A stretch of 35,872 nucleotides of DNA from Chloroflexota bacterium (lineage in GTDB: Bacteria > Chloroflexota > Chloroflexia > Chloroflexales > Roseiflexaceae): NCBI GenBank assembly GCA_030550675.1, contig JAUQOW010000016.1:1-35872 (forward strand). Reading direction: 5' to 3'. Both the position numbers and the translations under genes were made by a program. Below the pieces are notes generated by a model. It ran no database searches. It saw nothing but the letters and a program-made list of their open reading frames with translations, and had not been told where the DNA came from. Below are positions 8,553 to 29,073 of this stretch, in pieces. The number at the start of each line of letters is the position of its first letter. The stretch's first letter is position 1.

Positions 8553-8877
8553 TAGGCGCAGTTCTCGCCTGAAAAGGCTTGTCGGCTTCATTTCAGAGTC
8601 TCACTATAGCTGCCACGATGACAATGACGTTTGAAGAATAGATGTATCGGAAAGTTTTCGCGATTGCAGGCGCCAGTCATAGGTCACGCAGGAAAGAGCG
8701 TTGCGTGCGGGGCTTACGAACTGCGCCTGACATGCGCTTCCGCCTACTTCGCGGCGCGGGTGGAGCACAGGCTGTTAGCTTGCTTGCATCAGTCAGAGCG
8801 CGTGCGAATGCGCACACTCTGTGCTGATTCACCCAGCATATACAAGCCAGCGACTGTTTTCGGAGAGGAGGCACTAC

Positions 8878-12483: not shown

Positions 12484-12486
12484 CGT

Positions 12487-14253
12487 TCAGGACCTTTCGC
12501 CAGCGGCGTATCCCAGCACCTGACGCATCACCTGGTAGAGCGCGCCTGTGCAATCCGGCGCAACACGGTGGCTGCGCCAGGCGACATGGGCATCGGGGCG
12601 CACCAGGATGCACCCATCTTCCGCCACCTCGCGCAGCCGCGCCCAATCGTCGTAGGTATCCAGCACTTCGCGTCCAGGTCCGATGGTGTAACAGGCAATC
12701 TCGACACCGGTGCGCGCCGACACCTCTGCCGCCGCCGTTTTCCAGGCTTCGCCGCCGATGCCGGTCAACAGCGTGAAACGCCCTTTGCCAGCCAGATCGA
12801 GCGTGCTGACCTTGCGCCCCCGATGCTCCAGCCAGCAGTGCGGCAGTCGAGCGCCGGGCCAGGTCGTCGGGTGGTAGTAGAGTTCCGGGTCGCGCTCATA
12901 TGGAGGTTCGGGGGCGCCGTCGCTCACCACTGCGGCGGAGCGATAGCGCTGATTCATCTCGACGCCGTGCGCATTGAACTCGTAGTTCTTCAGTTCGATT
13001 GCCTTGCGCAGTTTTTCGCGCGCTTCAGCCCCACGCGGACTGTTCTCCTTGCGAATCTCCATGTTGGCGAGCATCTGCTGCGGGTCATTCGTCTCCAGCA
13101 AGCCAAGCGCCTCGAAAATCGGTCCGAATTCGCGGATGCTCTTGTTCGCCCGTTCGACGATCTGTTTGCCGATAGGCGCACGCTCGTCGCTGTAGGTGTC
13201 AAGCAGGCGCGGCGACGCCTTCCCCTGCAATACCAGCGCCAGTTTCCACGCCAGGTTGTAGGCGTCCTGGATCGATGTATTCGAGCCCAGACCGTTAGAC
13301 GGCGGATGTCGGTGACAGGCGTCGCCCATGCAAAACACCCGACCGCGCGAGTAGCGCGTTGCGTACATATGGTTGACGCTCCAGAGCGAGGTTGACTCGA
13401 TAGTAATAGGGATCGTGTCATCGCCGATCAGGTTATGTGCGATCTTAATCGCTGTCGCCTCATCCACAACCGGCGGCGGTTGGGAAATATCATAACCCCA
13501 GACAATCAGCCAGCGGTTCCAGGGGCGCACCATGCGCACCAGACCCATGCCAATGCCGCCGATGTTCGATCCGGGCTGAAGCACCCAGTAGAGCACACTG
13601 GGACGATGCGCCACATAGCGCGACAGATCCGCCTGAAACACGATGTTCATGCTTCCGGCGATATCCATCCGTCCTTCCATTGGCAGCCCGATATCCTCGG
13701 CAACCTTGCTGCGTCCGCCGTCCGCCCCAATCACATACTTCGCGCGGATCTGATAGGTCGCACCATTCAACCGGTCGCGCGCCGTGACCGTCACCCCATC
13801 GGCGTCTTGTTCGAGCGCCAGATACTCGGTATCGAAACGGATGCGCGAACCGCGCGCAGCGGCATGACCGAGAATGATCGGTTCCAGCAGGTCCTGCGGA
13901 ATATCGCAGATCTGTGACGGGCTTGCCAGATCGAAATCGGCTTTGCGACGCGGATGCGTTCCCCAGGTATGCAAACGCGCCAGTTCTTCACCCGCCAGGC
14001 TGGTGCAAAAGACAGTATCGCCCATCAGATGCTGCGGCGTCGCTTTCGCCATCACCTCGCTTTCCAGTCCTACATCGCGCAGAATTTCGACCGTGCGCTG
14101 GTTTGTGATATGCGCTCGCGGCGTGTTGGCTGTCCAGCGATATTTGGTCAGAACCATGTTCTTGATGCCGTAGGTGCTCAGGAACAGCGCCGCTGAACCG
14201 CCAGCCGGACCGCTGCCAATGATGAGAACGTCGGTTTCGTGGGTTGCAGTCAT
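12487..14253 (-). CDS. FAD-dependent aromatic hydroxylase (TfdB/PheA-like)
   Basis: A 588-residue single-component flavoprotein monooxygenase. GSGPAG (13-18) binds FAD, GADGG (176-180) is the DG motif shared by FAD and NAD(P)H sites, and GDACHRHPP (310-318) is the second FAD motif. A thioredoxin-like C-terminal domain (about 430-588) completes the phenol hydroxylase/TfdB architecture. Such enzymes use NAD(P)H and O2 to hydroxylate phenols next to an existing OH. With hydroxyquinol dioxygenase and maleylacetate reductase in the same block, a resorcinol-type hydroxylase making hydroxyquinol is the most economical role, but other phenols are possible. It lies 3 bp upstream of the thiolase and 47 bp after the LivM gene. 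Confidence 0.85.
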   Translation of the reverse strand: MTATHETDVLIIGSGPAGGSAALFLSTYGIKNMVLTKYRWTANTPRAHITNQRTVEILRDVGLESEVMAKATPQHLMGDTVFCTSLAGEELARLHTWGTHPRRKADFDLASPSQICDIPQDLLEPIILGHAAARGSRIRFDTEYLALEQDADGVTVTARDRLNGATYQIRAKYVIGADGGRSKVAEDIGLPMEGRMDIAGSMNIVFQADLSRYVAHRPSVLYWVLQPGSNIGGIGMGLVRMVRPWNRWLIVWGYDISQPPPVVDEATAIKIAHNLIGDDTIPITIESTSLWSVNHMYATRYSRGRVFCMGDACHRHPPSNGLGSNTSIQDAYNLAWKLALVLQGKASPRLLDTYSDERAPIGKQIVERANKSIREFGPIFEALGLLETNDPQQMLANMEIRKENSPRGAEAREKLRKAIELKNYEFNAHGVEMNQRYRSAAVVSDGAPEPPYERDPELYYHPTTWPGARLPHCWLEHRGRKVSTLDLAGKGRFTLLTGIGGEAWKTAAAEVSARTGVEIACYTIGPGREVLDTYDDWARLREVAEDGCILVRPDAHVAWRSHRVAPDCTGALYQVMRQVLGYAAGERS

Positions 14254-14300
14254 GGTTGTATGCGCCTCCGAAAACGAATGACAACAATGCTGAACGTTGA

Positions 14301-15341
14301 CTATTGCCAGGCATTACGCTCATGTGCATCACCCGAACTGGCGCCGACGCGCCGATGCACCGGAAAGATCTCGAATTGCCAGCGGCGTCGAATGATCCCC
14401 CAGATGCCTTCGGGGGCGAATATCATCATGACGACCGCAATAGCGCCAAGAAGGATCAACGACCATTCGCCGAAATCCGAGAGAAATTGCCGTAAGACGA
14501 AGAACAGAATCGCGCCGATGATTGGTCCCTCGATCGAGCCAATGCCGCCAATAATCACAATGAAGATCATGAACGCCGTCCACTGCACGCTGAAGGCGGC
14601 ATCGGGCGTGATGCGCAGCAGGTTGAGATAGATCAGCGCGCCGACGACGCCGGTTCCGAACGCGCAGAGCAGATAGACGAACAGTTTGATGCGCTGCGTC
14701 TCGATGCCGAGATTGGCTGCCGCCGTCTCGGAGTCGCGGATGGCGGTCAGCGCCAGACCGGTGCGCGAGCGCATGAGCAGATGCACCAGCGCGATGACTC
14801 CCAGCCCGATGACCACCGCCAGCGCATAGGTCAGCAATTCGCGGGTCTCGCGCGTCATAGCGCTGGTGGCTGTCAGCGTGCGCCCAAGCCCGCCGCGCAA
14901 CCAGTCGGTGCTGTTCATCACCAGCAAACGCAGGATTTCCGCCACCACCCACGTGCCTACCGAAAAATACCCGCCGCGCAGCCGGAAGAGCAGACCGGCG
15001 GCAGGGAGCGCAAGCAGCGCGGCGGCGACGCCAGCCAGCACCAGACCAAGCGGAATGGGCAGACCGAGATCATCGGCGGCGACGATCAGCGCATACCCGC
15101 CGATCCCGATCCACGCTTGTTGACCAATCGACACCAGCCCGGTGTAGCCAGCCAGCAGATTCCAGAGTTGCGCCAGCGCCAGCAGGGTCAAAAACTCCAC
15201 CAACATGCGCATAACTCCAGGTCCGCCCCAGAACGGCAGGCTGACCAGCGCTCCGATAACCAGCGCCCCAAGCGCCGTAAACTGGATCACCGACAGTTGT
15301 TTCCAACCCGCAGGAGACTCTGCGACACGCGCTTTGATCAT
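14301..15341 (-). CDS. Branched-chain-type ABC transporter permease (LivM-like)
   Basis: A 346-residue inner-membrane permease of the LivM family. It has about ten hydrophobic segments and the typical cytoplasmic loop around SETAAANLGIETQRIKLFVY, where LivM proteins contact the ATPases. GGIGSIEGPIIG near the end is a further family hallmark. It pairs with the LivH-like gene 11 bp upstream. ABC importers of this class carry branched amino acids, urea, or aromatic and dicarboxylic acids. Position between hydroxyquinol dioxygenase and the hydroxylase suggests the growth substrate is imported by it. Confidence 0.9.
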   Translation of the reverse strand: MIKARVAESPAGWKQLSVIQFTALGALVIGALVSLPFWGGPGVMRMLVEFLTLLALAQLWNLLAGYTGLVSIGQQAWIGIGGYALIVAADDLGLPIPLGLVLAGVAAALLALPAAGLLFRLRGGYFSVGTWVVAEILRLLVMNSTDWLRGGLGRTLTATSAMTRETRELLTYALAVVIGLGVIALVHLLMRSRTGLALTAIRDSETAAANLGIETQRIKLFVYLLCAFGTGVVGALIYLNLLRITPDAAFSVQWTAFMIFIVIIGGIGSIEGPIIGAILFFVLRQFLSDFGEWSLILLGAIAVVMMIFAPEGIWGIIRRRWQFEIFPVHRRVGASSGDAHERNAWQ

Positions 15342-15352
15342 CGTTTCCCTCG

Positions 15353-16222
15353 CTACAGATCACGGGTTCGCGCAAAGAGGCCGGTGGGACGGATCGCCAG
15401 CACCAGGAGCGCCAGAATATGCCCCGCCAGCTGGAACCAGCCAGGGTTGATCGCCGCGCCGATGCTCTGCGCAACGCCAAGCAATAACCCGCCGGCAAAG
15501 GTTCCCCACAGGCTGCCCAGTCCGCCGATAATGACCGCCTCAAAGGCATAGATCAGGCGCGCCGGTCCGTCGGACGGTCCAAAAGTCGTGCGCATGCCGA
15601 GCAGAATGCCCGCTACGGCAATCAGTGCGAGTGAGGCGCCCATTGCCAGCCCGTAGATCTGTCTGCTATCGATGCCCATCAACTCCGCCGTGGTTGGATC
15701 GTCCGACGTGGCGCGGAATGCGCGCCCAAGATCAGTGCGCCCCATGAATTGCTGGAGACCGATAATCGCCAGGATCGCAATTGCCATGTTCAGGAGCGGC
15801 AGAACGCCGACGGTCGCCAAACCGCCAATCGGCACACTGGCGGTTTCCAGCGATCCTGCCGGGAGACGCTGCGTATCGGCGGTAAACGTCAGGAGCAACC
15901 CGTTCTGGATCATGATCGATATCCCAAAGGTGATCAGCAACGGCGGCATCGGTCCCGAACCCAGAACGCGGTTCAGAACGCCGCGCTGCAACAGCACTCC
16001 CAGTCCGAACATGACCGGAATGACGATCGCCAGGGTCAGGAGCGGCGGTAACCCCGTCACCTCAATCAACACCAGCGACAGGTAGGCGGCGCAGACGATC
16101 AGATCGCCATGCGCGAGATTGACCAGACGCATCACGCCGAAGATCAGCGACAGCCCGATGCCATAGAGCGCATAGAATCCGCCCAGCAAGAGACCCTGCA
16201 CGATTGTGCCCGCCCAATCCAT
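15353..16222 (-). CDS. Branched-chain-type ABC transporter permease (LivH-like)
   Basis: A 289-residue permease of the LivH family. The opening GLLLGGFYALYGIGLSLIFG and the segment MRLVNLAHGDL are the standard signatures, and AFRATSDDPTTAELMGID is the ATPase-coupling loop. Seven to eight membrane segments are expected. It forms a heterodimer with the LivM-like protein. It is spaced 3 bp from the LivF-like gene upstream and 11 bp from LivM downstream, so the set is tightly cotranscribed. Confidence 0.92.
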   Translation of the reverse strand: MDWAGTIVQGLLLGGFYALYGIGLSLIFGVMRLVNLAHGDLIVCAAYLSLVLIEVTGLPPLLTLAIVIPVMFGLGVLLQRGVLNRVLGSGPMPPLLITFGISIMIQNGLLLTFTADTQRLPAGSLETASVPIGGLATVGVLPLLNMAIAILAIIGLQQFMGRTDLGRAFRATSDDPTTAELMGIDSRQIYGLAMGASLALIAVAGILLGMRTTFGPSDGPARLIYAFEAVIIGGLGSLWGTFAGGLLLGVAQSIGAAINPGWFQLAGHILALLVLAIRPTGLFARTRDL

Positions 16223-16225
16223 ACG

Positions 16226-16918
16226 CTACACTCCAAAATACGCCAGGGAAATCTGCTCACGACTCACATCCGCCGGTCGCCCGCTCAGGCTGACCTCACC
16301 TTCCAGCAGGCAGTAGACACGGTCGGCCACCTGGAGACTACGGGTCACATCCTGTTCGACAATCACCACCGTTGTGCCAGCGCGCGTAATCTCCTGCACC
16401 GTCTCATAGAGTTCACGAACGATGACCGGCGCCAGTCCGAGCGAGATTTCGTCCATCAGGATCAGATCCGGGTTGCTCATCAACGCCCGTCCGATCGCCA
16501 GCATCTGTTGCTGACCGCCCGACAGATCAATGCCAGGGAAATCGGCGCGTTCGCGCAACACCGGGAACAAGTCGAACACCCGTTCCAGACTCCACGGTCC
16601 CTTCCGCCTGCTCTGCCGCCCGATCAGCAGATTTTCGCGCACGCTCAGGCTTGGGAAAATCTTGCGCCCTTCCGGGACCATCGCAACGCCGAGGCGCGTC
16701 ACAGCATACGCCGGACGACCATCGATCCGCATGCCGCGATATCGCACCTGCCCGGAGCGCGGGCGCAATACGCCGGCAATCGTGCGCAGGAGCGTCGTTT
16801 TGCCAGCGCCATTCGCGCCGATGATAGCGACCGTCTCGCCCTCGGCGACCTCGATGCTGACGCCGAAGAGCGCCTGAAACTCGCCGTAGAAGACCTCGAT
16901 TGAGTCGACAACCAGCAT
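16226..16918 (-). CDS. ABC transporter ATPase (LivF-like)
   Basis: A 230-residue ATPase with Walker A GANGAGKTT, signature LSGGQQQML and Walker B LILMDE, followed by SLGLAPVIV, typical of LivF. It powers import together with LivG. The start is ATG 16918: MLVVDSIEVFYGEFQAL matches the family N-terminus and AAGAG lies 6 nt upstream. Alternative in-frame starts (ATG 16924, GTG 16939) overlap or crowd the LivG stop. The gap to LivG is 10 bp. Confidence 0.9.
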   Translation of the reverse strand: MLVVDSIEVFYGEFQALFGVSIEVAEGETVAIIGANGAGKTTLLRTIAGVLRPRSGQVRYRGMRIDGRPAYAVTRLGVAMVPEGRKIFPSLSVRENLLIGRQSRRKGPWSLERVFDLFPVLRERADFPGIDLSGGQQQMLAIGRALMSNPDLILMDEISLGLAPVIVRELYETVQEITRAGTTVVIVEQDVTRSLQVADRVYCLLEGEVSLSGRPADVSREQISLAYFGV

Positions 16919-16928
16919 ACCCATCTCT

Positions 16929-17651
16929 TCAGTCCACACCCAGGTAAATCATCTTCAACTCATCGCTCGCCAGGACTGTCGCCGGATCGCCTTCGAGCAG
17001 CTTCGTGCCAAAATCCATCAGCAACAATCGATCCACAATCGCGGTTAGTGCATGCAGAATATGTTCGATCCAGAGAATGGTGACGCCTCGTTCCCGGATC
17101 CGCCGCACCACGTCGAGCAACTCATGCACTTCGTGCTCGGTCAGCCCGCCAGCAGTCTCATCGAGCAACAGAATCTGCGGGTTGGTGGCGAGCGCGCGCG
17201 CCAGTTCGAGCCGTTTTCGCTCCAGCAGGCGCAACTGCCCGGCTGGCATATCGGCGCGCGCCAGCAAGCCGGTTTCATGCAGGATGTCGCGGCAGAATGC
17301 GCGCGAGGCGCGTTCGCTTTGACCACGCCCATAGGTCGCGCCGACCAGCACATTCTCAAAGACCGTCATCCCGGAAAAGGGACGCGGTATCTGATAGGTG
17401 CGCGCAATGCCCAGGCGACAGCGTTGTTGCGGACGCAGACTGGTCACGTCCGCGCCCTGAAAGAACACCCGTCCCGCACTGACCGGGTGCTCACCGGTGA
17501 TCAGGCTGAAGGTTGTCGTCTTGCCAGCGCCGTTCGGTCCCAGAATGCCCAGAGCTTCACCACGCTGCACCTGGAACGACAGGTCGTTGATCACCTGCAA
17601 CTTGCCGAACGACTTCGAGACGCTTTGAACCTCGAGCAGGGGCGCTGCCAT
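16929..17651 (-). CDS. ABC transporter ATPase (LivG-like)
   Basis: A 240-residue ATPase with Walker A GPNGAGKTT and Walker B ILLLDE followed by TAGGLT. The signature region reads LLERKRLELARAL rather than LSGGQ, a variant seen in one LivG subgroup. ARTYQIPRPFSGMTVFENV after the Walker A is a LivG hallmark. It works with the LivF-like ATPase. The gene starts 9 bp after the stop of the substrate-binding protein gene. Confidence 0.9.
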   Translation of the reverse strand: MAAPLLEVQSVSKSFGKLQVINDLSFQVQRGEALGILGPNGAGKTTTFSLITGEHPVSAGRVFFQGADVTSLRPQQRCRLGIARTYQIPRPFSGMTVFENVLVGATYGRGQSERASRAFCRDILHETGLLARADMPAGQLRLLERKRLELARALATNPQILLLDETAGGLTEHEVHELLDVVRRIRERGVTILWIEHILHALTAIVDRLLLMDFGTKLLEGDPATVLASDELKMIYLGVD

Positions 17652-17660
17652 GCCTCATCC

Positions 17661-18941
17661 TCACACATTCCAGGGCAGGGGCCGGAGCGTTGCGGTCGTC
17701 GGGATATTCGGCGCGGTCTGATTAGTCGTGACCTGAATTTCCCACGAGTTCCCCTTGCGGCTCCACTGACCGCCAACCAGCGGCGTTTTAGTGACATTCG
17801 GCGTCGGTCCCACGCTCCAATCGACCGGACCAACAATGGTGTTAAGGCGGGTCGCCTTGATCGCGTCGCGGATTGACGCCTTGTTCTCGATGTTCTCGGC
17901 GCGCGCCAGTACATCGGTCGCAACCTCGAACAGCGAGTGAATGAAACCGAGCGGCTGCATCCAGGGCTGGCCCGTTTCCTTCGTATAGGCGGCGGCAAGG
18001 TCGGCTGCCGTGGCGGATGTGAGCGATGAACTGAACGGATGGCTGGGGGTCCACCAGATTTCAGTCGTCAGACCATCACCCAGGTTGCCGCCAATCGCTT
18101 CAACAGATGAGGGAAACAGCGCTGCTTTGGCGACGGTCACCATTTTGGGGCGGAATCCCTGCTGGCTCGCCTGCGACATGAAAGTAACCAGATCGGGCGG
18201 GATCATGACGCCGGTGACGATTTCAACGCCAGCGGATTTGAACGCATTGATCTGGGCGGAAAAATCGTCGGTCAGGTTCTGATAGCGCCCCGGATCGGTG
18301 AGCGTAAAGCCGCCTGCCGCCAGCGCCGGCGGAAACCCGCGCTCGGCGTCGCTCCATGCCAGCCCGTCGCCGTCATTGGGCCACATCGCGCCCACAACCT
18401 TGTTCGTGTCCAGCGAGTTCCACATGGCGGTAAAGACCGCAATCACATCTTCCAGACCCCAGAAGTAGTGGTAGGTCCAGTTGTAGCCGCTGGCTGGCAC
18501 ATTCGGATTGCGGAAATACCAGGGCTGCCATGGCGCCTTGGTCGAAATGCACGGCACGCCATTGGCTTCGCACTGGTCGCTCACCGGATTGGTCGTTTCC
18601 GGCGTCGAAGCGACCACCATCAGGTCGATGTTGTCTTTGAGGATCAGGTCAGCCGCCAGGCTTGCAGCACGGTTCGGGTCAGACTGACTATCTTTGACCA
18701 GGATTTCGACCGGTCGTCCCAGTTTCTGGCTCATCAACTCCGGCATGCCTTTGAGGATGAAGGCGTCGGCGGCGCCGAATCCAGCCAGCGGACCGGTCTG
18801 TGGGCTGACATAGCCGATCTTGATCGGACGCCTGGCATTGCTGCTCTGCGGTCCGCACGCCGTCACCGCCCCTCCAATGGCTGTGGCCGCCAGCGCCCCC
18901 GCCGACATGCGCAGGAATGATCGACGCGATAGTTTGTTCAT
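17661..18941 (-). CDS. ABC transporter substrate-binding lipoprotein, Tat-type
   Basis: A 426-residue periplasmic-binding protein of the LivK/amide-binding family. The N-terminus has a twin-arginine motif (SRRSFLR, residues 5-11), a hydrophobic stretch and a lipobox ending at Cys29 (AVTAC), so it is probably exported folded and lipid-anchored. The mature part begins with IKIGYVSPQTGPLAGFG, the standard start of this fold. It delivers ligand to the LivH/M permease. The ligand is unknown; context suggests an aromatic compound. The start ATG 18941 has GGGGGAG 9 nt upstream. The gap to the dioxygenase gene upstream is 28 bp. Confidence 0.9.
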   Translation of the reverse strand: MNKLSRRSFLRMSAGALAATAIGGAVTACGPQSSNARRPIKIGYVSPQTGPLAGFGAADAFILKGMPELMSQKLGRPVEILVKDSQSDPNRAASLAADLILKDNIDLMVVASTPETTNPVSDQCEANGVPCISTKAPWQPWYFRNPNVPASGYNWTYHYFWGLEDVIAVFTAMWNSLDTNKVVGAMWPNDGDGLAWSDAERGFPPALAAGGFTLTDPGRYQNLTDDFSAQINAFKSAGVEIVTGVMIPPDLVTFMSQASQQGFRPKMVTVAKAALFPSSVEAIGGNLGDGLTTEIWWTPSHPFSSSLTSATAADLAAAYTKETGQPWMQPLGFIHSLFEVATDVLARAENIENKASIRDAIKATRLNTIVGPVDWSVGPTPNVTKTPLVGGQWSRKGNSWEIQVTTNQTAPNIPTTATLRPLPWNV

Positions 18942-18969
18942 TGGTGTTCACTCCCCCTGATATCTGCAC

Positions 18970-19830
18970 TTATACGGGCATCAGCACAAAGTCGTAATGA
19001 ACCGTCCAGAAAGGCGCGCTGACGCCATGCTGCGCCGCTTCTTCCACAGATTCGTTCAAGACAAAGGGCACGACCAGCGACTCCTTTGTGCCAAAGACGA
19101 CGTCCGACTCAAGATAGGGATCGCCTTCGACGAAGAGATGGGTCACCAGGGTGCGATGACCAGGCGCAGAAACGATGAAGTGAATATGCGCCGGACGGTA
19201 CGAATGCCGCCCCAGAGCGCGCAGCATCTGCCCGACAGGACCATCGTCGGGAATGGAATAACTCACCGGCTTGATAGCGACGATCTTGTAGCGCCCTTCG
19301 TCGTCGGTGCGGAACCGGCCGCGCAGGTTCATCTCAGGCTGATTGGGATCCTGCTGCTCATAAAGACCCTGCTCATTCGCCTCCCACACATCAAGCACGG
19401 CGCCAGCGATGGGCGTTCCATCGGTGCTGAGCACGCGACCCGTCAACACGGCTGGCTCGCCCCGCCCATCCTGGCTGATTGATGCGCCATACGGCAGTTC
19501 GGCGGCGCCTTCGCGGTAGAACGGACCAAGCACTGTCGAAGCAGTCGCCACGCCGTTCGTGCGATGGTTGATGGCATCCACCAGCATGCTGACCCCCAGC
19601 GTATCCGAGAGGAGAATAAACTCCTGCCGCCGGTCGTCGCACATCTGCCCGGTACGGGTCAAAAACTGAACGCCCTGAAACCACTCTTCCTCAGTCAGTT
19701 CCACGTCACGCACGAAGGCGTGCAGATGGGTGATTAAACTCGTCATGATGCGCTTCAGGCGCGGATTCTGAACGCCTTCCAGGCTCTTGAGCGCGTTAGC
19801 GGTGATCTGCGCTTCACTCTCATCGTGCAT
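18970..19830 (-). CDS. Intradiol dioxygenase, probable hydroxyquinol 1,2-dioxygenase
   Basis: A 286-residue non-haem Fe(III) intradiol dioxygenase. The four iron ligands are visible: Tyr157 (GLYEQQ), Tyr191 (VSYSIPDDGP), His215 and His217 (RPAHIHF). Their spacings (34, 24 and 2) are close to those of catechol 1,2-dioxygenase. The N-terminal helical dimer domain is present. SIPDDGPVG after the second Tyr is typical of the hydroxyquinol subgroup, which opens 1,2,4-trihydroxybenzene to maleylacetate. The maleylacetate reductase in the same block supports this over catechol. Start ATG 19830 has AAAGGA 9 nt upstream. Confidence 0.88.
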   Translation of the reverse strand: MHDESEAQITANALKSLEGVQNPRLKRIMTSLITHLHAFVRDVELTEEEWFQGVQFLTRTGQMCDDRRQEFILLSDTLGVSMLVDAINHRTNGVATASTVLGPFYREGAAELPYGASISQDGRGEPAVLTGRVLSTDGTPIAGAVLDVWEANEQGLYEQQDPNQPEMNLRGRFRTDDEGRYKIVAIKPVSYSIPDDGPVGQMLRALGRHSYRPAHIHFIVSAPGHRTLVTHLFVEGDPYLESDVVFGTKESLVVPFVLNESVEEAAQHGVSAPFWTVHYDFVLMPV

Positions 19831-19859
19831 GCGTGTAATCCTTTCTTTCTTCCGAGCGC

Positions 19860-20618
19860 TTAGCGATATATCCCTTGGGGGTCAAGTTCCTCGCGCACAA
19901 CCCGCAACTCGTCCGACGTCGGCGGCGGCATTTCAGCTACGTCACCGGCAAGTCGCAGGTTCCAACCGACGGCTGCCCGCACCTGCTCAATGGTGATGCC
20001 CGGATGCACTGCGATCAGTTGCATCTCGCGCTCCGGGTTCGCAAAATCGAACAGCGCCATATCGGTAACCACCAGCGCCGGTCCGGCGCCAGGCAATCCG
20101 AGGCGCTCGCGGCTATCGCCGCCTTCAAGATGCCCCGGACTGGTGACGAAATCCAGACGTTCGACAAAGGCGCGGCGCGTCAGGCGCATGATCACGAAGG
20201 TTCGCCGGGCATTGGCGGCAATCTCGCAGGCGCCGCCGCTCCCTGGCAGGCGCACCCTGGGATGCGCATAGTCGCCAATGACGGTCGTGTTCAGATTGCC
20301 AAACCGGTCGATCTGCGCACCGCCAAGCAACGCCACATCGACTAACCCGCCCTGCAAGTACAGACCAAACAGATCAGCCTGCGACACCACTGATGTGGCG
20401 CCGGTTACGAGCGTTGGATCGCCGATTGAAAGCGGAAGACGCGCCGGACGCGCACCATATACGCCTGCCTCGTAGATCAGTTCGAGGTCCGGTGCCATGG
20501 TGCGGCGCGCCAGATTGCAGGCGATATTCGGCAACCCGACGCCAACGAAGACCGTGCGCGCCCCAGCCAGTGCACGAGCGGCGGCTACAATCATCATCTC
20601 GGAGGCGGTATAGTTCAT
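19860..20618 (-). CDS. CoA-transferase beta subunit (glutaconate/3-oxoadipate type)
   Basis: A 252-residue subunit of a class I CoA-transferase. LIYEAGVYG carries the likely catalytic Glu50, which forms the CoA thioester intermediate. GSGGACEIA is the second conserved loop. The YEAG context matches glutaconate CoA-transferase subunit B and CatJ-type 3-oxoadipate CoA-transferases rather than PcaJ, which has a SENG motif. In this block it should activate 3-oxoadipate to 3-oxoadipyl-CoA, probably from succinyl-CoA. Its ATG overlaps the stop of the alpha subunit (ATGA), which indicates coupled translation. Confidence 0.85.
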   Translation of the reverse strand: MNYTASEMMIVAAARALAGARTVFVGVGLPNIACNLARRTMAPDLELIYEAGVYGARPARLPLSIGDPTLVTGATSVVSQADLFGLYLQGGLVDVALLGGAQIDRFGNLNTTVIGDYAHPRVRLPGSGGACEIAANARRTFVIMRLTRRAFVERLDFVTSPGHLEGGDSRERLGLPGAGPALVVTDMALFDFANPEREMQLIAVHPGITIEQVRAAVGWNLRLAGDVAEMPPPTSDELRVVREELDPQGIYR

Positions 20619-21532
20619 TGGTACGCTCCGTAGTCCACCAGCGCCGCTGGCGCGGGCGCGGGTTTGAGGCGCGCCAGGCGCTCAACGCCCAGTTTCTCCA
20701 GATACGCCGCACGATCAGGCACGCCGTAGACCCATTCCTCAAGCCAGGCGACCACCTGTTCGTGGTTGCGCGAGATGCGATCCCATTCGAGATAGAACTG
20801 ATTGTCGCGGTCGTAGTACCCCTGCGCATAGGAGGGGTGCGCCCCGAATGGCTCATGCACCACGGCATCGACGATCAGTCCGGGGATGATCGTCCGATTC
20901 GGATCAGAGCGAATGACCGCCTCATCGACAATCTCTTCCACCACCACGATCCGGCGCCGTGCGGCAAAGGCGACCTCTTTCTGCGATCCGATCAACCCCC
21001 AGAGGTGCGTGTTGCCGGAGACATCGGCGCGTTGCGCGTGGATGATGGCGACGTCTGGGTTGAGCGGCGGAACCACGGCAATCGGCGCGCCGCTGTACGG
21101 GTCTTCGACGGTGCGAATGAGCGGATTGACGCGCGGCATATCGCTGCCCGCGTATGACCGCAGCGGAAAGAACGGCAAGCGGGATGCGCCAGCAATGTAG
21201 CGACCGACCATGCCATAGTGCGAATACTCTTCGAGTTCGAGCGGCTGCGGAATGCCCTGCTCGACGGCTCGACGGATCGCATTGAGCGAACCGACGCCAG
21301 GATTGCCCAGGTAGCTGAAAATCATCTTCCGTGCAACTCCGGCTGCCACCATCTGGTCATAGATCAGGTCCGGCGTCATGCGGATGAGCGTCAGGTCGCG
21401 TCGCCGCTGACGAATAATCTCGTGACCGGCGGCAAAGCAAATGCAGGCGGTAAAGCCTTCAATCGCCACCGACATGCCATCCTGCACATAGCGTGCAATG
21501 GCATCGCGCATCGAAAGGCGCTTATCGGTCAT
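20615..21532 (-). CDS. CoA-transferase alpha subunit (glutaconate/3-oxoadipate type)
   Basis: A 305-residue partner of the beta subunit. VAIEGFTACICFAAGHEIIR resembles the GctA/CatI glycine-rich CoA-binding region, and RRRDLTLIRMTPDLI follows as in that family. YLGNPGVGSLNAIRRA is another shared segment. At 305 residues it is longer than PcaI subunits (about 230). The gene is flanked by two 4-bp ATGA overlaps, with maleylacetate reductase upstream and the beta subunit downstream, so all three proteins are likely made in step. Confidence 0.85.
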   Translation of the reverse strand: MTDKRLSMRDAIARYVQDGMSVAIEGFTACICFAAGHEIIRQRRRDLTLIRMTPDLIYDQMVAAGVARKMIFSYLGNPGVGSLNAIRRAVEQGIPQPLELEEYSHYGMVGRYIAGASRLPFFPLRSYAGSDMPRVNPLIRTVEDPYSGAPIAVVPPLNPDVAIIHAQRADVSGNTHLWGLIGSQKEVAFAARRRIVVVEEIVDEAVIRSDPNRTIIPGLIVDAVVHEPFGAHPSYAQGYYDRDNQFYLEWDRISRNHEQVVAWLEEWVYGVPDRAAYLEKLGVERLARLKPAPAPAALVDYGAYQ

Positions 21533-22599
21533 ACCCTGGTTCCTTTCGGGCGCCGCCCGTAATAGGCGTCATCGAGCAACTGGCGGATGCCGTCGCGCGC
21601 CAGCGGCGCGGGGTTGGGATATGGGCTGCGCAGCGCCAGATCAGCAGCGCGGTCGAGGTCCTCAAAGCGCATGCCAATATCGCGCAGCGCTGTCGGCGCC
21701 CCAAGGCTGGCAGCCAGATCGAACAGAGCGCCTGGCGCATCGGCGGCGCCCATTGCCCGCGCCACCCGCGCCAGCGCGTCAGGCGCCGCTGGCGCGTTGT
21801 AGGCTGCGGCATGCGGCAGTATGATCGTATGGACCTCCGCGTGGGGCAGATTGAAACTGCCGCCGAGCAGGTGGCAGAGTTTGTGGTGCAAACCCGGCGT
21901 TGCCGCGCTAAGCGCAGCGCCAGCGAGCCACGCGCCGTACAGCGCCAGGGAGCGCCCTTCCAGATTCTCCGGCTCGCGCACCACAATCGGCAGACTGCGG
22001 CTCAGCGCGCGAATGCCTTCCTCTGCCATCAACTGAACAATCGGACTGGCATCGACGGCGTACAATGCCTCAACACAATGCGCCAGCGCATTCATGCCGC
22101 TTGGAGCGGCGATAGCCGCCGGCAGGCTGAGCGTCAGCTCCGGGTCGTAAATCACCACCCGCGGGCGCACCCGCTCATTGCGTCCCGTGCGCTTCTCCCC
22201 TTCCGCCGTCACCCCCCAGATTGCAGTCATCTCCGAACCAGAGTAGGTTGTCGGAATCGCAATGATCGGCAACCCGCTTTCGAGCGCGATGGCTTTTGCC
22301 AGACCAATTGTCGAACCGCCGCCAATGGCGACATAGCCATCGCATCCCAGGCGCGCCGCCTCTGCACGCGCTGCTTCAGCCGCAGCCAACGGCACGTGCA
22401 TCGCTGCGTGGGCATACACGCCTGCTGCACGCCCGCCAAGCAGCTCGACAACCCGTTCAGCAAGGAAGATCTTGCGCGGCGTTGAAATCGCCAGCGCTCG
22501 TCGCAGACCCAGGCACGCCGCCTCGTCCGCCAGATGCGCAATACTGCCTGCGCCAAACACCACACGCACCGGCGTCTGTTCGTGAATAAAACGCATCAT
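21529..22599 (-). CDS. Maleylacetate reductase (iron-type alcohol dehydrogenase family)
   Basis: A 356-residue protein of the group III alcohol dehydrogenase family. GGGSTIGLAKAIAL is the NAD(P)-binding loop, IPTTYSGSEMT follows, and SGMNALAHCVEALYA lies in the metal/active-site helix. The opening VVFGAGSIAHLADE and the total length fit maleylacetate reductases, which reduce maleylacetate to 3-oxoadipate. This is the expected step after hydroxyquinol cleavage. It overlaps by 4 bp with the esterase upstream and the CoA-transferase downstream. Confidence 0.9.
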   Translation of the reverse strand: MMRFIHEQTPVRVVFGAGSIAHLADEAACLGLRRALAISTPRKIFLAERVVELLGGRAAGVYAHAAMHVPLAAAEAARAEAARLGCDGYVAIGGGSTIGLAKAIALESGLPIIAIPTTYSGSEMTAIWGVTAEGEKRTGRNERVRPRVVIYDPELTLSLPAAIAAPSGMNALAHCVEALYAVDASPIVQLMAEEGIRALSRSLPIVVREPENLEGRSLALYGAWLAGAALSAATPGLHHKLCHLLGGSFNLPHAEVHTIILPHAAAYNAPAAPDALARVARAMGAADAPGALFDLAASLGAPTALRDIGMRFEDLDRAADLALRSPYPNPAPLARDGIRQLLDDAYYGRRPKGTRV

Positions 22600-23243
22600 G
22601 CTTTCGCCTCTCCCGTCACTGCGCGCAGGATCGCTCGTGCAGCGGCAAGTTCTTCGGCGCTGATCTCATGACTCGATCCTGGATAGAAATGCGTCTCGAC
22701 ACGCGCCCCCATGCGACGAAACACCTCAACGCTTTCGCGCGCCCGCCAGAACGGCACCCAGGCATCCTGTTCGGCGCTGCCGATCATGACCGGCGTACCA
22801 TCGAAATTGCCTGGATAGTTCCAGACCGTCCCTTCCGGTCCGATCAAACCGCCGGTGAAGATCACAATGCCGCCGTAGCGTGCTGCGTTCCGCACGGCAT
22901 ACTCGGCAGTCAGGCAGGCGCCCTGCGAAAATCCGATCAGCACCAGCCGATGCAGAGGAATGCCGTGCGCCAGCACTTCTTGCACTCGCACGTGATACGC
23001 CTCGAGCGCATAGTCCAGGTAGGGTTGATTGCGCTCGACCGGCTCGATAAACCGGTAGGGATACCACGACTGAAAGGCGGCGGCGGGCGCAAGATACGCC
23101 ACTCCCGACACATCAAACGTCCTGGCGAGCGCAATCATCTGATCCGGCGCGCCCCCTCGACCATGGATCAGGATCGCCGCAGCGCGGCAGCGATCCAGAG
23201 GCGCACCTGCGGTCAGAACCGGTTGGGCAAGATGAACATTCAT
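22596..23243 (-). CDS. Alpha/beta hydrolase, carboxylesterase/phospholipase family (MhqD-like)
   Basis: A 215-residue esterase with a complete triad: Ser106 in GFSQG, Asp160 in SAEQDAWVP and His192 in SSHE. ILIHGRGGAPDQM forms the oxyanion region. It resembles predicted phospholipase/carboxylesterase proteins including MhqD of Bacillus, which is encoded beside a VOC dioxygenase and induced by quinones. Here too it sits 23 bp after a VOC dioxygenase gene. A role in hydrolysing ring-cleavage or thiol-quinone products is likely but unproven. A dienelactone hydrolase role is less likely, because no chlorocatechol genes are present. Confidence 0.8.
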   Translation of the reverse strand: MNVHLAQPVLTAGAPLDRCRAAAILIHGRGGAPDQMIALARTFDVSGVAYLAPAAAFQSWYPYRFIEPVERNQPYLDYALEAYHVRVQEVLAHGIPLHRLVLIGFSQGACLTAEYAVRNAARYGGIVIFTGGLIGPEGTVWNYPGNFDGTPVMIGSAEQDAWVPFWRARESVEVFRRMGARVETHFYPGSSHEISAEELAAARAILRAVTGEAKA

Positions 23244-23266
23244 GAGTCCCGGTCCATCACTAACGC

Positions 23267-24220
23267 TTACGGCACAGAAATTGGCTCAAGCGCCGAAATG
23301 ATCTCCTCGCGGCGATGCTCGAACCAGGGCGGCAACAACAACTTCTTGCCGAGTTGATCGGCTGGCTCATCGGTCGCAAACCCGATGTCGGTCGTTGCGA
23401 TTTCAAACAGCACGCCGCCGGGCATGCGCACATAGATCGAGTGGAAGTAGTTGCGATCCTTCGACTCTGAAACGTCAGTGTACCCCAGACCTTCGAGAAA
23501 CGCCTTGACTTTCGCCTGTTCCTCGTCGTTGCGCACCGCGAATGCGACGTGATGCACCGTGCCGACGCCGAACGTCCAGCTGCCAGCCGGCACATCCGGC
23601 TCGTGCAGAAAATCAATCGTGCAGCCTGCGCCGCCCTTGCCGACTTCAAATCGCGTGTAGGCGCCTTCCTGTCCAGTTTTGCGGAAGCCGAGCGCCTCGA
23701 TCATGAAGCGTTCCGACTCAAACGTTTCACGGAGCGAAAGCGTAATCGTATGCAACCCGCGCACGCCAACCTCTGCTGGAACTTCGTCGGTGGACCACGG
23801 CGTCCGCTCGTCCTGGTCGTCGCCGATCATCTCGAATTCCAGTCCGGCGGGATGGTAGAAGCGCAGATACTTCTGCCCGAAACGTTCGGCGATTGGCTCA
23901 TGCGGCACGCCGTACTGTTTGAACCGCTCGATCCAGAACCCGAGCGATGAGGTCGGCACGCTGTAGCCGGTGACTTTCACCTGCCCGCTGCCCTTGCGAC
24001 CGTAGATGCCCGCCTGTTTGAAGGGAAACGTCGTCATAATGCTGCCCGGCTCGGCGTTGGCGTTGCCGTAGTACAGGTGGTAGATTGGGAGCGTGCCATC
24101 GAACAGCACGGTCTGCTTCACCATGCGCTGACCGATGATTTTGGCGAAGAAATCGATGTCCTCCTGCGCACCAGCGACGCACGACGTCAGATGGTGCAAC
24201 CCGCTAATCAGATGTGCCAT
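23267..24220 (-). CDS. VOC-family ring-cleaving dioxygenase (MhqE/MhqO/LinE-like)
   Basis: A 317-residue glyoxalase-fold (VOC) protein with two modules (about 1-145 and 150-310). LHHLT (His9/10), TVHHVAF (His223/224) and VLFEIATT (Glu273) supply a His-His-Glu metal site. Relatives include MhqO/MhqE, which are quinone-inducible, and LinE, which cleaves hydroquinones. The enzyme may open para-diols such as hydroquinone or hydroxyquinol. The start is ATG 24220, with AGGAGG 5 nt upstream; an earlier in-frame start at 24265 has no such site. It is the first gene of the 13-gene block and is followed by the MhqD-like hydrolase. Confidence 0.85.
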   Translation of the reverse strand: MAHLISGLHHLTSCVAGAQEDIDFFAKIIGQRMVKQTVLFDGTLPIYHLYYGNANAEPGSIMTTFPFKQAGIYGRKGSGQVKVTGYSVPTSSLGFWIERFKQYGVPHEPIAERFGQKYLRFYHPAGLEFEMIGDDQDERTPWSTDEVPAEVGVRGLHTITLSLRETFESERFMIEALGFRKTGQEGAYTRFEVGKGGAGCTIDFLHEPDVPAGSWTFGVGTVHHVAFAVRNDEEQAKVKAFLEGLGYTDVSESKDRNYFHSIYVRMPGGVLFEIATTDIGFATDEPADQLGKKLLLPPWFEHRREEIISALEPISVP

Positions 24221-24250
24221 GCGTTCCTCCTTTTGACGTTTGAATTCCGG

Positions 24251-24278
24251 GTCATACCTGAACAAACTCTCGCTTCAA
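24251..24278 (-). promoter_or_regulatory. Possible internal promoter before the dioxygenase-esterase pair
   Basis: On the minus strand TTGAAG (24278-24273), 16 bp and TATGAC (24256-24251) form a weak promoter-like pair in the 66-bp gap before the VOC dioxygenase gene. It could drive the catabolic block separately from the PAS-STAS gene. The match to consensus is modest. Confidence 0.3.
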
Positions 24279-24286
24279 CACTCCAG

Positions 24287-25219
24287 TCAGGATTGCCGTA
24301 GCACCACCTCCACACCCTCCTGAAGCGTGGCGTGGAGCGAGACGCCAGGCTGTGGCATGCCCAGCGACGCCAGCGCCTCCGCGTCGAGCGCCTGCACACC
24401 GGTGATCACAACCCGCACGCCGATCAACCGGAGCGCCTGACTCAATCTCAACAACAGACGCGCAACTCCGTTCTCAAGTTCGTTTTGGGCGCTGATATCA
24501 ACAATGGCTGCATGCGCGGGATGCCGCGCGATATTGGTCAGCACTGCGTCAACGATCTCATCCGCCCGCTGATCGTTGATACTGCCGGTAATCGGCGCCA
24601 TAATCACTCCTGGGGAGAGGCGGAGCACCGGTGCGCTCAGATCGCGCAGCATGCTCTGCTGGCTGGCAATCACCTGTTGCTGAAGAAGCAGTTGCTCCTG
24701 TTCCAGGCGACGCTGACGGGTCAGATCGCGAATGATCGCGGCGCGTAACTGCGGTTGTCCATTGCTGTCCCGGATGAGCGTCAACGAAATGTTCGCCTCG
24801 AATGTGCTCCCATTGCGCCGCAGATAGGTGCGGCTGCCCTGCCAGGTCCCTTCTTGCAGCAGGCGTTGCACGACTGCCGAAACGAAGCGATGCTCTTCCG
24901 GGGCAATCATGTCGTTCAGGTGCATCCCGATCACCTCAGCGCCGCGTTCAGTCATCATCTGAAATGCCCGATTCGCATAGGTGATCACACCGTCGATGGT
25001 CGTGATCACCACTCCGTCCGGCGTTCCTTCGATCAACGCCTCAAAGACCTGCCAGCGCTGCCAGCGCTGTTCGTCGAGACGATCACGCAGCAGCGCCGCT
25101 TCGTCCTGGCAGCGGCGTTCACGTTCGCGGAGCGCAGCGACTTCCTGAGCAAGTGCGTCGCGTTCAGCAGTCAGCGACTCGATCAACGCCAGGCTTGCGG
25201 TGCGACGGCGAGACACCAC
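24287..25219 (-). CDS. PAS-STAS signalling protein (RsbR-like)
   Basis: A 310-residue protein with a coiled coil (about 1-55), a PAS domain (about 58-180, IDGVITYANRAFQMMTE and YLRRNGSTFEANISL), a linker helix rich in Gln, and a STAS domain (about 200-308). The STAS part, with VIMAPITGSIN, VDISAQNELENG and GVRVVITGVQ, resembles RsbR co-antagonists of stressosomes, which sense signals and are phosphorylated by an RsbT-type kinase. A Ser stands in the DIT/DIS position. No kinase or phosphatase gene is adjacent. The start is GTG 25219, with GAGG 7 nt upstream. It lies between the BTAD regulator and the catabolic genes and may report redox or ligand state to them. Confidence 0.82.
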   Translation of the reverse strand: MVSRRRTASLALIESLTAERDALAQEVAALRERERRCQDEAALLRDRLDEQRWQRWQVFEALIEGTPDGVVITTIDGVITYANRAFQMMTERGAEVIGMHLNDMIAPEEHRFVSAVVQRLLQEGTWQGSRTYLRRNGSTFEANISLTLIRDSNGQPQLRAAIIRDLTRQRRLEQEQLLLQQQVIASQQSMLRDLSAPVLRLSPGVIMAPITGSINDQRADEIVDAVLTNIARHPAHAAIVDISAQNELENGVARLLLRLSQALRLIGVRVVITGVQALDAEALASLGMPQPGVSLHATLQEGVEVVLRQS

Positions 25220-25269
25220 GCCAGAACCTCATCTCCGTAGAAAAGCTTGATGCAGAACAGGCTGAAAGT

Positions 25270-25355
25270 ACTATAGAGGGCGAGCGTCACCGCACCGTCA
25301 TCATATGCGTCAACCGCGCATCATTCCACTGATATTCGGCGTCAACGGAGCGTCA
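25270..25355 (-). promoter_or_regulatory. SARP-like operator: five phased TGACG direct repeats plus -10
   Basis: On the minus strand TGACG occurs at 25355-25351, 25344-25340, 25312-25308, 25300-25296 and 25289-25285. The steps are 11, 32, 12 and 11 bp, near whole helical turns. A TATAGT -10 box (25275-25270) starts 9 bp after the last repeat and no TTGACA box is present at the right spacing. SARP-type activators bind direct repeats on one helix face, with the last repeat about 8 bp from the -10. The neighbouring gene encodes a BTAD/SARP-type regulator. Confidence 0.6.
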
Positions 25356-25533
25356 TCTGGAGTATGACAAGGATGTACCCGTCGGCGTGTTATGTTATGT
25401 TGAAACGTCCACTTCAGGCATCAAGACGCTGCGAGCTGAAGCCCTCGCTGAGATCGCGCGAGCCCTTGTCGGGCTTCCACGTCCTGAGTGAGGCTTATGG
25501 TTTTTGAGAACCTGATCCGGCATCACCCGATCC

Positions 25534-25585
25534 AGCCCGCGAAGGCGGGCTTCGCAACCGTAGCCCGCGGCTTCAGTCGCCGGGC
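25534..25585. repeat. Tandem palindromic hairpins (REP-like), possible terminator
   Basis: AGCCCGC-GAAG-GCGGGCT (25534-25551) is a perfect 7-bp stem. A second hairpin starts with another AGCCCGC and closes with CGGGC (25563-25585). They lie 38-89 bp past the stop of the regulator gene. No T-tract follows on the minus strand, so any termination would be imperfect or Rho-assisted. Confidence 0.5.
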
Positions 25586-25622
25586 GGGGATGCGGATAGC
25601 GGAAGAGGCATATGAGACACGC

Positions 25623-28600
25623 TCACAGCGCGAGCGCGCGCACCTCGGCGAGCGCGCCGAAGGCGGAAAGATCGCGGCGGGCGCCCTCCAGGAGGGCGCG
25701 ACCTGAGGGAGAATGCGGGGTTTGCTGCAGCATAACGCGCGCCAGCGCAGCGCGAGTTCGTGCGACTTCGAGCGGGATATCGAGCGCAGCCGCCTGATCG
25801 ATCAACTCAATCAGGCGCGCCTGCGCCGCGGTTCTGTCATGACGCGCCAGGTACAGCGCATAGAGACGTTCAGCGTGCAGCAGCAGCAGCCTGCGACGTT
25901 GCGAGCGCGCCAGCGCCAGCGCCGTATCAAGGCAGGCGCCCGCATCATCAGATCCCTGCGCGAGCATAATCTCGGCAAGCCAGAGCAGCATGCGAATGCG
26001 CAGGTGCCAGTAGGCGCGCCTGGCAATGGTTTGCAGCGCCGCTTCGAGTTGCGTGCGCGCCTGATCAAACTGCCTGCGTTGCGCCCGGATCAACGCCAGC
26101 GTCGCCTGATACCCGGCCTGACGTTCGAGATTGCCCAGGCTGTCGGCAATCGCCAGACCCTGACGACAGGCTGCTTCGGCATGATCCCAATCGCTGACAT
26201 ACAGACAGATTTCGCTCTCGGTGCTGAAAAGATGAAGCAAAACGGATAACAGACCGTAGTTTTCTGCAATTGTGCGTCCCCGATCCAGCGCCTCCTGTGC
26301 ATCATTGAGACGCCCGACCAGCAAGCTGTGGTAGGCGAAATTGTTCGCCGCGAGCGCCTGCAAAAACGGGGCGCGCCCGTCGTTGACCACGGCTTCAGCC
26401 TGGCGGTAGAGATCCAGCGCCTGATACACGTTCCCCTGCTGCGCGAGCACATTGCCCAACTCGAACAGCGCCAGACACAAGTTGGTCTGATCGCCGGACT
26501 GCTCGTGCGCTTCGATGGCAGCGCGAAGATAATGCTCCGCAGACTCCAGATCGCTCCCTTCCATCGCTCGCGCCGCGCCGATCAGGCGATACCCGCGCCC
26601 CTGCATAACCTGGCGTTGCGGCGCTGTGATCGAGGCGACACGCGCTAGCCCGCGATTCGCCGCCGCGATCACCGCCTCGTAATCGTTGAGGATCAACGCC
26701 GCTTCAGCCAGTTCGAAACAACCAACGACCTCCGCTTCCGCATTCCCTGCGCGTTGTGCAAATTCGATCTGCCGCTGGTGCCAGACATACGCCTGATCGA
26801 TATTGCCAAGCGCACGATACGCCTGCCCGAGCGCATGCGCCAGACGCCGCTGATCGTCTAGCGACGCGCCATCTCGTACCAGTGCGTCCAGACGTTGCAA
26901 AAAGGCGACCGTCCCGGCGCCGGCAAAGGCATACGGCAGATCATTGAGCAACGCCAGACCGTAGCGACGCGCTCGTTCCACGTCGCCGCCAGCGACGGCG
27001 TGGCGCGCAATCAACTCGATCACGTCAGGCGCCGTCGCTCCATACCGTTCCCACGCTATCGCCAATCGACGATGCAGGCAGCGCTGCGCAAAATTGTTCA
27101 GGTGATGCAATGCCGCTTCGCGCAATAGCTCATGCGCCAGCGTCACCATATCACCCTGTTCGAGCGTTAGACGATCGGCGATCAGTTCGTCAATCGCACG
27201 ATAAACCTGGTGCGTGTCCCATTCCAGAGCAAGCGCGATCACCTCCAGGGGCAAACGGACGCCAGCGACCGCCAGCACATTGACGACCTGACGCGCGTGC
27301 GGATTCAATCCATTCAGGCGCAACAAAACCAGATCGTGTGTGCGTTCGGGCAGCGTCGCCTCTGTGCGCCACCGAATCCAGCGGGCATTGTCGAAATGCA
27401 TGTCTCCTTTGTCAGGCACGAGCAATTGCTCCGTCTGAAGTTGAGCGATCAACGCCTCAATAATGAACGGATTGCCAGCGGAACGCGCCATCAGCCACGG
27501 CGCCAGCGATTTGATAGCCGTTTCAGGCGCCTTAAGGGTGGCAAGAATCTCACGCACCGCATCGAGCGACAACGCCGGGATACGGATATGGTCGAGATCG
27601 CCGCGACGCCTCCCCACCACTGCAATCTCCTTCAACAACGCATCGCCTGGATGCTGAATGGTTCCGATCAGCAGCAGCGGCAGGCGATGCAAATGAAACG
27701 CAAGATAGCCAAACAGTCGGATCGTGCGCTGATCGGCTGCGTGAAGGTCGTCAATCGCCAGCGCAATCGGTCCCTGCTGGCTGAGATTGGTCAGCATATG
27801 CAGCACATCTTCAGCAAAGCGATCCGACACTGTGGCGCCCGCCTGCTCGACGCCTGTGAACGGCGCCACCTGGTCTGGCAGCATATGCCCGAACGCTTCA
27901 CGAAACGCGCTGTACGCCAGAATGCTATCAAACGACGAGCAACGCCCCCGGAAGATCTGCCACGTCCGATTGCCGGGCATTGCTGTGATCCGGGCAAGCA
28001 GTTCATCAACAAGACGACTCTTCCCGATCCCGATCTCTCCTTCAATCAGCACGACTCGACCACTTCCCTGCGCAACCAGACTGCTGATCTCCAACAGGCG
28101 GTCGAGCAGCGCCAAACGTCCCACAAACGGCAACATCGTCGGACGCGCACGCACAAATGGTGTTTGCGGCTTCCTGTCGACGACTCGCATGTCGCGCCGC
28201 TTGAGGACGAAACGCAGAGCGGCGCGAGTTTCCTCGGCGGGAGCAATGCCAAGTTCCCGGTGCAGGGTGCGCTCGACGTGCTGGTAGTGACGCCGGGCAA
28301 GACCAGGCGCGCCGCTGCGCACATACGCCGCCATCAGTCGCTGATGCGCCAGTTCATCGAGCGGATCGAGGCGCGTCAACTCTTCCAGGCGTCGAATCGC
28401 CTGTTCCCAATCCCCGCGCTGCTCGGCAAAGGTTGCGAGACGCTCCAACGCCAGACGCCAGTGACGGGTCAGCCAGGCATCCTGCTGCTGGATGAACTCA
28501 TCGAACAGGACGGAGTCGGGAATGCTGAAATCTTGCAGAAACGAACCGCGAATCAGACCAACGGCAGTAAGGAGATCCGTCTCGCTGCCAGCAGCGATCA

Positions 28601-28934
28601 ACTGCTGAAAGCGGATGAGATCGCACTCGACATACCGGTGATCCAGCATCAGGCGGTCGCCATCGGTGCGCAGCACTGCATCGGCATCGAGGACGCGCAG
28701 CGCCTGCCTGAGTTTGTAGAGCGCCGAACGCAACGAATGGCGCGCGTCATTCAACGACACATCGCCCCACAACAGCGCCGCCAGATGATCACGGGCATAC
28801 GATTTCTGACTCGCAGCAAGATAGTAGAGCAGCGCCTGCGATTTCTGATGCGGCAGTTCAAGCGCCGTCCCTTCGCGCGTCACCAGCGGCGCACCCAGCA
28901 TGCAGATCGTCAACAACGGCGACTCTTCCGGCAT
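25623..28934 (-). CDS. BTAD/SARP-type regulator with AAA ATPase and TPR domains
   Basis: A 1103-residue regulator. The first 100 residues (LTICMLGAPLVTREG, then DARHSLRSALYKLRQAL) form a winged-helix OmpR-like DNA-binding domain. The BTAD helical domain follows (about 105-245, with RGSFLQDF and GIAPAEETRAAL). An AAA/STAND-like ATPase has Walker A GEIGIGKS (299-306) and Walker B IALAIDDLHAAD (390-401). The C-terminal half is TPR-like helical repeats. This is the AfsR/large-SARP architecture: an activator whose ATPase and TPR parts sense a signal. Start ATG 28934 is chosen for GGAG 8 nt upstream; an upstream start at 28991 adds unconserved residues. It is the likely controller of the genes downstream. 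Confidence 0.88.
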   Translation of the reverse strand: MPEESPLLTICMLGAPLVTREGTALELPHQKSQALLYYLAASQKSYARDHLAALLWGDVSLNDARHSLRSALYKLRQALRVLDADAVLRTDGDRLMLDHRYVECDLIRFQQLIAAGSETDLLTAVGLIRGSFLQDFSIPDSVLFDEFIQQQDAWLTRHWRLALERLATFAEQRGDWEQAIRRLEELTRLDPLDELAHQRLMAAYVRSGAPGLARRHYQHVERTLHRELGIAPAEETRAALRFVLKRRDMRVVDRKPQTPFVRARPTMLPFVGRLALLDRLLEISSLVAQGSGRVVLIEGEIGIGKSRLVDELLARITAMPGNRTWQIFRGRCSSFDSILAYSAFREAFGHMLPDQVAPFTGVEQAGATVSDRFAEDVLHMLTNLSQQGPIALAIDDLHAADQRTIRLFGYLAFHLHRLPLLLIGTIQHPGDALLKEIAVVGRRRGDLDHIRIPALSLDAVREILATLKAPETAIKSLAPWLMARSAGNPFIIEALIAQLQTEQLLVPDKGDMHFDNARWIRWRTEATLPERTHDLVLLRLNGLNPHARQVVNVLAVAGVRLPLEVIALALEWDTHQVYRAIDELIADRLTLEQGDMVTLAHELLREAALHHLNNFAQRCLHRRLAIAWERYGATAPDVIELIARHAVAGGDVERARRYGLALLNDLPYAFAGAGTVAFLQRLDALVRDGASLDDQRRLAHALGQAYRALGNIDQAYVWHQRQIEFAQRAGNAEAEVVGCFELAEAALILNDYEAVIAAANRGLARVASITAPQRQVMQGRGYRLIGAARAMEGSDLESAEHYLRAAIEAHEQSGDQTNLCLALFELGNVLAQQGNVYQALDLYRQAEAVVNDGRAPFLQALAANNFAYHSLLVGRLNDAQEALDRGRTIAENYGLLSVLLHLFSTESEICLYVSDWDHAEAACRQGLAIADSLGNLERQAGYQATLALIRAQRRQFDQARTQLEAALQTIARRAYWHLRIRMLLWLAEIMLAQGSDDAGACLDTALALARSQRRRLLLLHAERLYALYLARHDRTAAQARLIELIDQAAALDIPLEVARTRAALARVMLQQTPHSPSGRALLEGARRDLSAFGALAEVRALAL

Positions 28935-29073
28935 TTCGTAATCTCCGCAACACTGCGTGATGCAAAGAATGGGGATGGAACACAGCGCCAATGCAAATGC
29001 CCGGATTACCCGATGCCAAAAGCGGAGAACATGCGAAGCGGCTGATTCTCAGAATTGTCACAGCTTGCTTATT

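Follow-up and report, generated by a model that had tools for sequence, protein, structure and literature searches.

In the pho boxes read by the PhoB/OmpR family, 11-bp direct repeats take the place of the -35 element, and outside the Actinobacteria the HilA boxes of Salmonella are direct repeats recognised by a regulator of OmpR-like/TPR type. For SARP activators, the published promoter geometry has repeats spaced by 11 or 22 bp, of which the final one is 8 bp from the -10 element (PMC10936776), and a recent review confines SARPs to the actinobacteria (PMC10972967). Chloroflexota nevertheless have many BTAD proteins, and a full-text search covering open-access papers returned no description of SARP operators or BTAD target sites in this phylum. 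The window analysed here, a stretch of 35,872 nucleotides from a Chloroflexota bacterium (contig JAUQOW010000016.1, genome G000), contains an array of TGACG repeats that precedes a block of catabolic genes and follows the gene for a large BTAD/AAA/TPR regulator. Judged by its sequence features and those of its relatives, the assignment of this array as a putative SARP-type operator is well supported.

Architecture of the repeat array and the gene block

On the minus strand, positions 25357 to 25270 have the sequence GATGACGCTCCGTTGACGCCGAATATCAGTGGAATGATGCGCGGTTGACGCATATGATGACGGTGCGGTGACGCTCGCCCTCTATAGT. The initial annotation had described five minus-strand copies of TGACG with steps of 11, 32, 12 and 11 bp, ending 9 nt before TATAGT, and the positions on re-reading agree (25285–25289, 25296–25300, 25308–25312, 25340–25344 and 25351–25355, with TATAGT at 25270–25275). 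It had missed a sixth, degenerate half-site, ATGATGC, on the same strand (25318–25324), which splits the 32-bp step into 21 and 11 bp and thereby places all units on about one face of the helix, in a step series of 11, 21, 11, 12 and 11. Written as heptamers of the form nTGACGn, the array begins with ATGACGC (25350–25356) and TTGACGC (25339–25345), continues through the degenerate unit to TTGACGC (25307–25313) and ATGACGG (25295–25301), and ends with GTGACGC (25284–25290), which stops exactly 8 bp before the -10 element. A search for a sigma-70 promoter found no -35 box at the array, in line with the earlier remark that a TTGACA box is absent. The array has the direct repeats at 11 or 22 bp that mark SARP promoters (one step being 21 and one 12), a 3' repeat that stops 8 bp short of the -10 element, GTGACGC to TATAGT, at a spacing that is also family-wide, and the poor or absent -35.

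Downstream, a likely ribosome-binding site read from the sequence, GGAGATGAGG (25227–25236, minus strand), precedes the GTG start of a gene for a PAS-STAS protein (24287–25219, minus strand; Pfam PAS and STAS). Together with 13 more co-directional genes (11278–24265, minus strand) separated by gaps of at most 47 bp, it forms one 14-gene run. The 13 encode a VOC ring-cleavage-type protein, an esterase, an Fe-ADH of the maleylacetate reductase type and an intradiol dioxygenase of the hydroxyquinol type, as well as CoA-transferase A/B of the 3-oxoadipate type, a thiolase, an FAD monooxygenase and a branched-chain-type ABC transporter. The block is predicted to encode a hydroxyquinol/3-oxoadipate-like route, with substrate names taken from the protein families. 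Elsewhere in the window, a single reading frame of 816 aa (8821–11271) encodes an MFS-type membrane domain fused to one that is spermine synthase-like, and the gap before it holds a 43-bp tandem repeat (8374–8516; 3.3 copies, 97% matches) with ATTCG-containing units.

Conservation and recurrence of the element

The PAS-STAS gene has an orthologue in one other genome only, that of Roseiflexus sp. SKYG45 (G002; 97% protein identity), and a search for orthologous gaps beyond SKYG45 found none. The initial annotation had proposed an alignment of related gaps, and in this sole orthologous gap the repeats are kept. All 12 substitutions relative to the window array fall in spacers, and each of the six heptamers and the -10 element is unchanged (0 of 48 positions; Fisher p 2.7e-5); the DNA immediately upstream of the array is badly eroded. 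A functionless chance cluster of a common pentamer might be suggested by the single TGACG sites in the window, which show no excess (116 found against 108 expected). None of 300 random windows had five same-strand TGACG within 86 bases, but because the pentamer had been picked post hoc a control with any 5-mer was run, and random windows turned out often to hold some 5-mer five times in 86 bases. For an arbitrary 5-mer, the repeat count alone is therefore no proof of a non-random arrangement. In contrast, a helix-phased chain of five, again for any 5-mer, is rare (1 of 200 random windows). This rarity, the conservation confined to repeats and -10 element in SKYG45, and the exact spacing shared across the family strongly disfavour a chance origin, to which we give hardly any credence.

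The recurrence of the element was assessed in 40 relatives with the pattern TGACG-N6/7-TGACG-N8/10-TAnnnT, which allows six spacings. Of the 29 matches in the family, 18 have precisely the (6,9) spacing seen in the window array (p 5e-8, assuming six equally likely spacings with one sixth expected, and counting the window and its orthologue among the 18), against 0 of 6 matches outside the family. A strict form with GTGACG twice gives 16 matches in 158 genomes of the class, compared with 1 for the reversed pattern, and falls to chance level outside the class, where a sample of 400 from the phylum yielded 2 matches. One pair of GTGACG at the window's spacing belongs to a different class of this phylum and lies just downstream of the gene for an OmpR-type response regulator (locus L246, G247:C184, about 624–1540). 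Scans of G000 for strict triples, for pairs with a -10 element and with one mismatch gave no credible sites beyond the window array, the one-mismatch scan yielding fewer matches than its control. With just this array, G000 would have no wider regulon, and the element there would serve a single target. A scan for TGACG arrays had been put forward together with the initial annotation; the spacing is non-random across the family, and the window's own genome adds nothing to the array already known.

In other family genomes the arrays precede genes of different kinds. Four of the six arrays in G006 lie before cellulase or CBM2 genes (GH5-CBM64, GH6-CBM2 and two CBM2), and those in G007 and G013 are found ahead of PhoX, NHL and methyltransferase genes. 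The G006 loci have the appearance of a cellulase regulon scattered over L136:2479-5658 (G006:C11), L134, L137 and L138, with two or three GTGACG at 11 bp before the -10 element of the GH5-CBM64, GH6-CBM2 and CBM2 genes. The array at G006:C11 is located between the gene for a small SARP of 309 residues and the divergent GH5 cellulase gene.

Candidate binders of the array

The gene just upstream of the array (25623–28991, minus strand, likely ATG start at 28934) encodes a large SARP-like BTAD/AAA/TPR protein (Pfam BTAD 1.8e-17). At the sequence level, its N-terminal 254 residues (window positions 28946 to 28185) resemble the SARP domain of AfsR (E 1e-6) and EmbR, and an AlphaFold2 model of this part, built from 35 locus-derived sequences (pLDDT 95), has a winged helix followed by TPR/BTAD helices. 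The first Foldseek matches of the model are EmbR (E 6e-11) and AfsR (E 2e-10). Taken together, the sequence and fold matches identify a SARP-domain protein with an AAA/TPR extension, with the N-terminal OmpR-like winged helix and subsequent BTAD of a SARP regulator, as had been proposed for this same-strand neighbour. No TGACG array is present in the promoter of the BTAD gene itself.

Regulator genes were inspected in array-containing loci extending to 8 kb. BTAD genes accompany the arrays in the window, at G016:C3296, at G006:C11 and at G013:C46, the last with a second TGACG pair in the divergent promoter. For five arrays other than that of the window, the distance to a BTAD gene is about 2 kb or less, and one to two are near OmpR genes. 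For 16 family arrays, with the window and its orthologue left out, linkage to BTAD genes within 3 kb was seen three times against 0.15 expected (P 5e-4), and linkage to OmpR-type DNA-binding domains once against 0.38 expected. Outside the family, two of four class arrays, found by pattern alone, lie in the divergent promoter of a BTAD gene (G060 and G087). When no motif was preselected, TGACG ranked first among all 5-mers for repetition at 11 bp in the intergenic DNA of 64 BTAD loci from eight family genomes, with 6 pairs against 0.09 expected; two of these six pairs, and one of the four loci concerned, are the window's. Near two BTAD loci the intergenic DNA contains GGACT/TGGAC repeats at 11 bp as well, and these may represent the box of a further SARP subgroup. 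Speaking against the SARP reading, the majority of family arrays lack a neighbouring BTAD gene, and the window's array is 3' of its BTAD gene, as opposed to the divergent 5' region elsewhere.

The geometry is also PhoB-like, and the array could accordingly be read as the operator of an OmpR/PhoB-family response regulator, with 11-bp direct repeats replacing the -35 element. One G013 array is near a PhoX gene, and OmpR-type genes lie near arrays at G006:C18 and in G247. Preferential linkage of the box to OmpR-family genes, which would support such an operator without strictly defining it, is not seen: the 196 OmpR-type genes in the eight genomes show no enrichment by the arrays (one linkage, about 0.4 expected), whereas the BTAD linkages number three, and the window gave no OmpR-type match in a phmmer search with one OmpR-type query. 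An OmpR/PhoB-type operator is quite unlikely on these grounds.

As for which BTAD protein would act at the array, G000 has 14 BTAD matches. In SKYG45 the BTAD gene (87% identical) and the array lie on separate contigs, divided by a real breakpoint, and the PAS-STAS gene faces a second PAS-STAS gene, the orthologue of which is on contig C48 in G000. Regulator and target are thus not adjacent in the one comparable relative, a trait that is supporting and not strictly defining, and two genomes cannot tell which order of BTAD gene and array is the older. A dispersed intergenic repeat of about 112 bp marks the breakpoint in the window (25492–25604, minus strand); copies of this repeat occur in Roseiflexus genomes at L022, L042, L080, L172 and L244. 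A tree built from 40 DNA-binding/BTAD regions clusters the array-linked proteins of G016, G060 and G087 (93/77) and puts that of G013 in a neighbouring group, while the window BTAD stands alone outside the main array-linked clade. A single clade of array-linked BTADs was considered and rejected, with four changes on the tree; 11 of 500 shuffles are as low, and the array-linked proteins are more clustered than most shuffles.

Owing to the broken adjacency and the placement of its DNA-binding domain, binding of this array by the neighbouring protein is plausible but unproven. Another BTAD protein of G000 might be the binder and the neighbour adjacent by an accident of rearrangement, a reading with which the lost adjacency, the position of the window BTAD in the tree and the mostly BTAD-free surroundings of arrays elsewhere agree. 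Against it, none of the remaining G000 BTADs on the tree falls within the array-linked clade, and orthologues of the neighbour BTAD and PAS-STAS genes co-occur in the same two of six genus genomes; we regard a different BTAD binder as unlikely. The initial proposal of a SARP switch accordingly holds for the type of operator, in view of conservation, family spacing and BTAD linkage, and is weakened for the neighbour as binder by the SKYG45 contigs and the tree.

It appears rather probable overall that the array is an activator-dependent operator of SARP type that drives the PAS-STAS gene and the catabolic block, with the adjacent BTAD protein as the most likely binder. From the observed repeats, their phasing, the -10 geometry, conservation, family recurrence, motif–BTAD linkage and the SARP fold of the neighbour, we infer how binding and activation could proceed. 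A BTAD-family protein would line up head to tail along one side of the helix on the phased heptamers (approximately nTGACGC, in helical steps of 11 bp), which would place its DNA-binding domains just upstream of the -10 element, where the -35 box is missing. By analogy with AfsR, tandem protomers could replace the -35 contact, and recruit and hold RNA polymerase on the -10 element (PMC10936776). Transcription would then pass through the PAS-STAS gene and, by read-through, into the rest of the 14-gene block. In G000 the adjacent BTAD/AAA/TPR protein would most likely be the binder, and its AAA/TPR part could sense the inducing signal.

Relation to described operator systems

The array and its recurrence by SARP-like genes suggest that the SARP switch design is used far from antibiotics. 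Whether the Chloroflexota, in the class Chloroflexia, have a SARP-type code of their own, in which BTAD proteins read nTGACGC at 11-bp steps before a -10 element and control catabolic and secreted-enzyme genes instead of antibiotic clusters, we consider evenly balanced; the aromatic catabolism of Roseiflexus and the G006 cellulase regulon with its small SARP would be examples. The conserved box by BTAD genes is a first candidate operator code for a large uncharacterised class of regulators, and makes BTAD regulons predictable in uncultured phototrophs and cellulose degraders.

To our knowledge, the box TGACGC is unlike published SARP heptamers. In other respects the array resembles the Streptomyces SARP promoters (AfsR/afsS, ActII-ORF4, DnrI and PimR), which have heptameric direct repeats at 11/22-bp steps, 8 bp to the -10 element and a weak or absent -35, and are served by activators with an N-terminal OmpR-like winged helix and BTAD (PMC10936776, PMC10972967). 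Unlike those promoters, it is found in Chloroflexota and has six repeats instead of two or three, and its targets are aromatic catabolism here, and cellulases in G006, as opposed to antibiotic clusters. For the regulator, the best fold match of the N-terminal 254 residues is EmbR of Mycobacterium. EmbR ends in an FHA domain, in contrast to the AAA/TPR extension of the window regulator. The pho boxes of PhoB/OmpR regulators are similar in the replacement of the -35 element by 11-bp direct repeats, and differ in that OmpR-type genes are not enriched by the arrays. The HilA boxes differ from the window array in the box itself, in having two repeats and in serving invasion genes, but with this precedent SARP-like operators outside the Actinobacteria are not wholly unprecedented.
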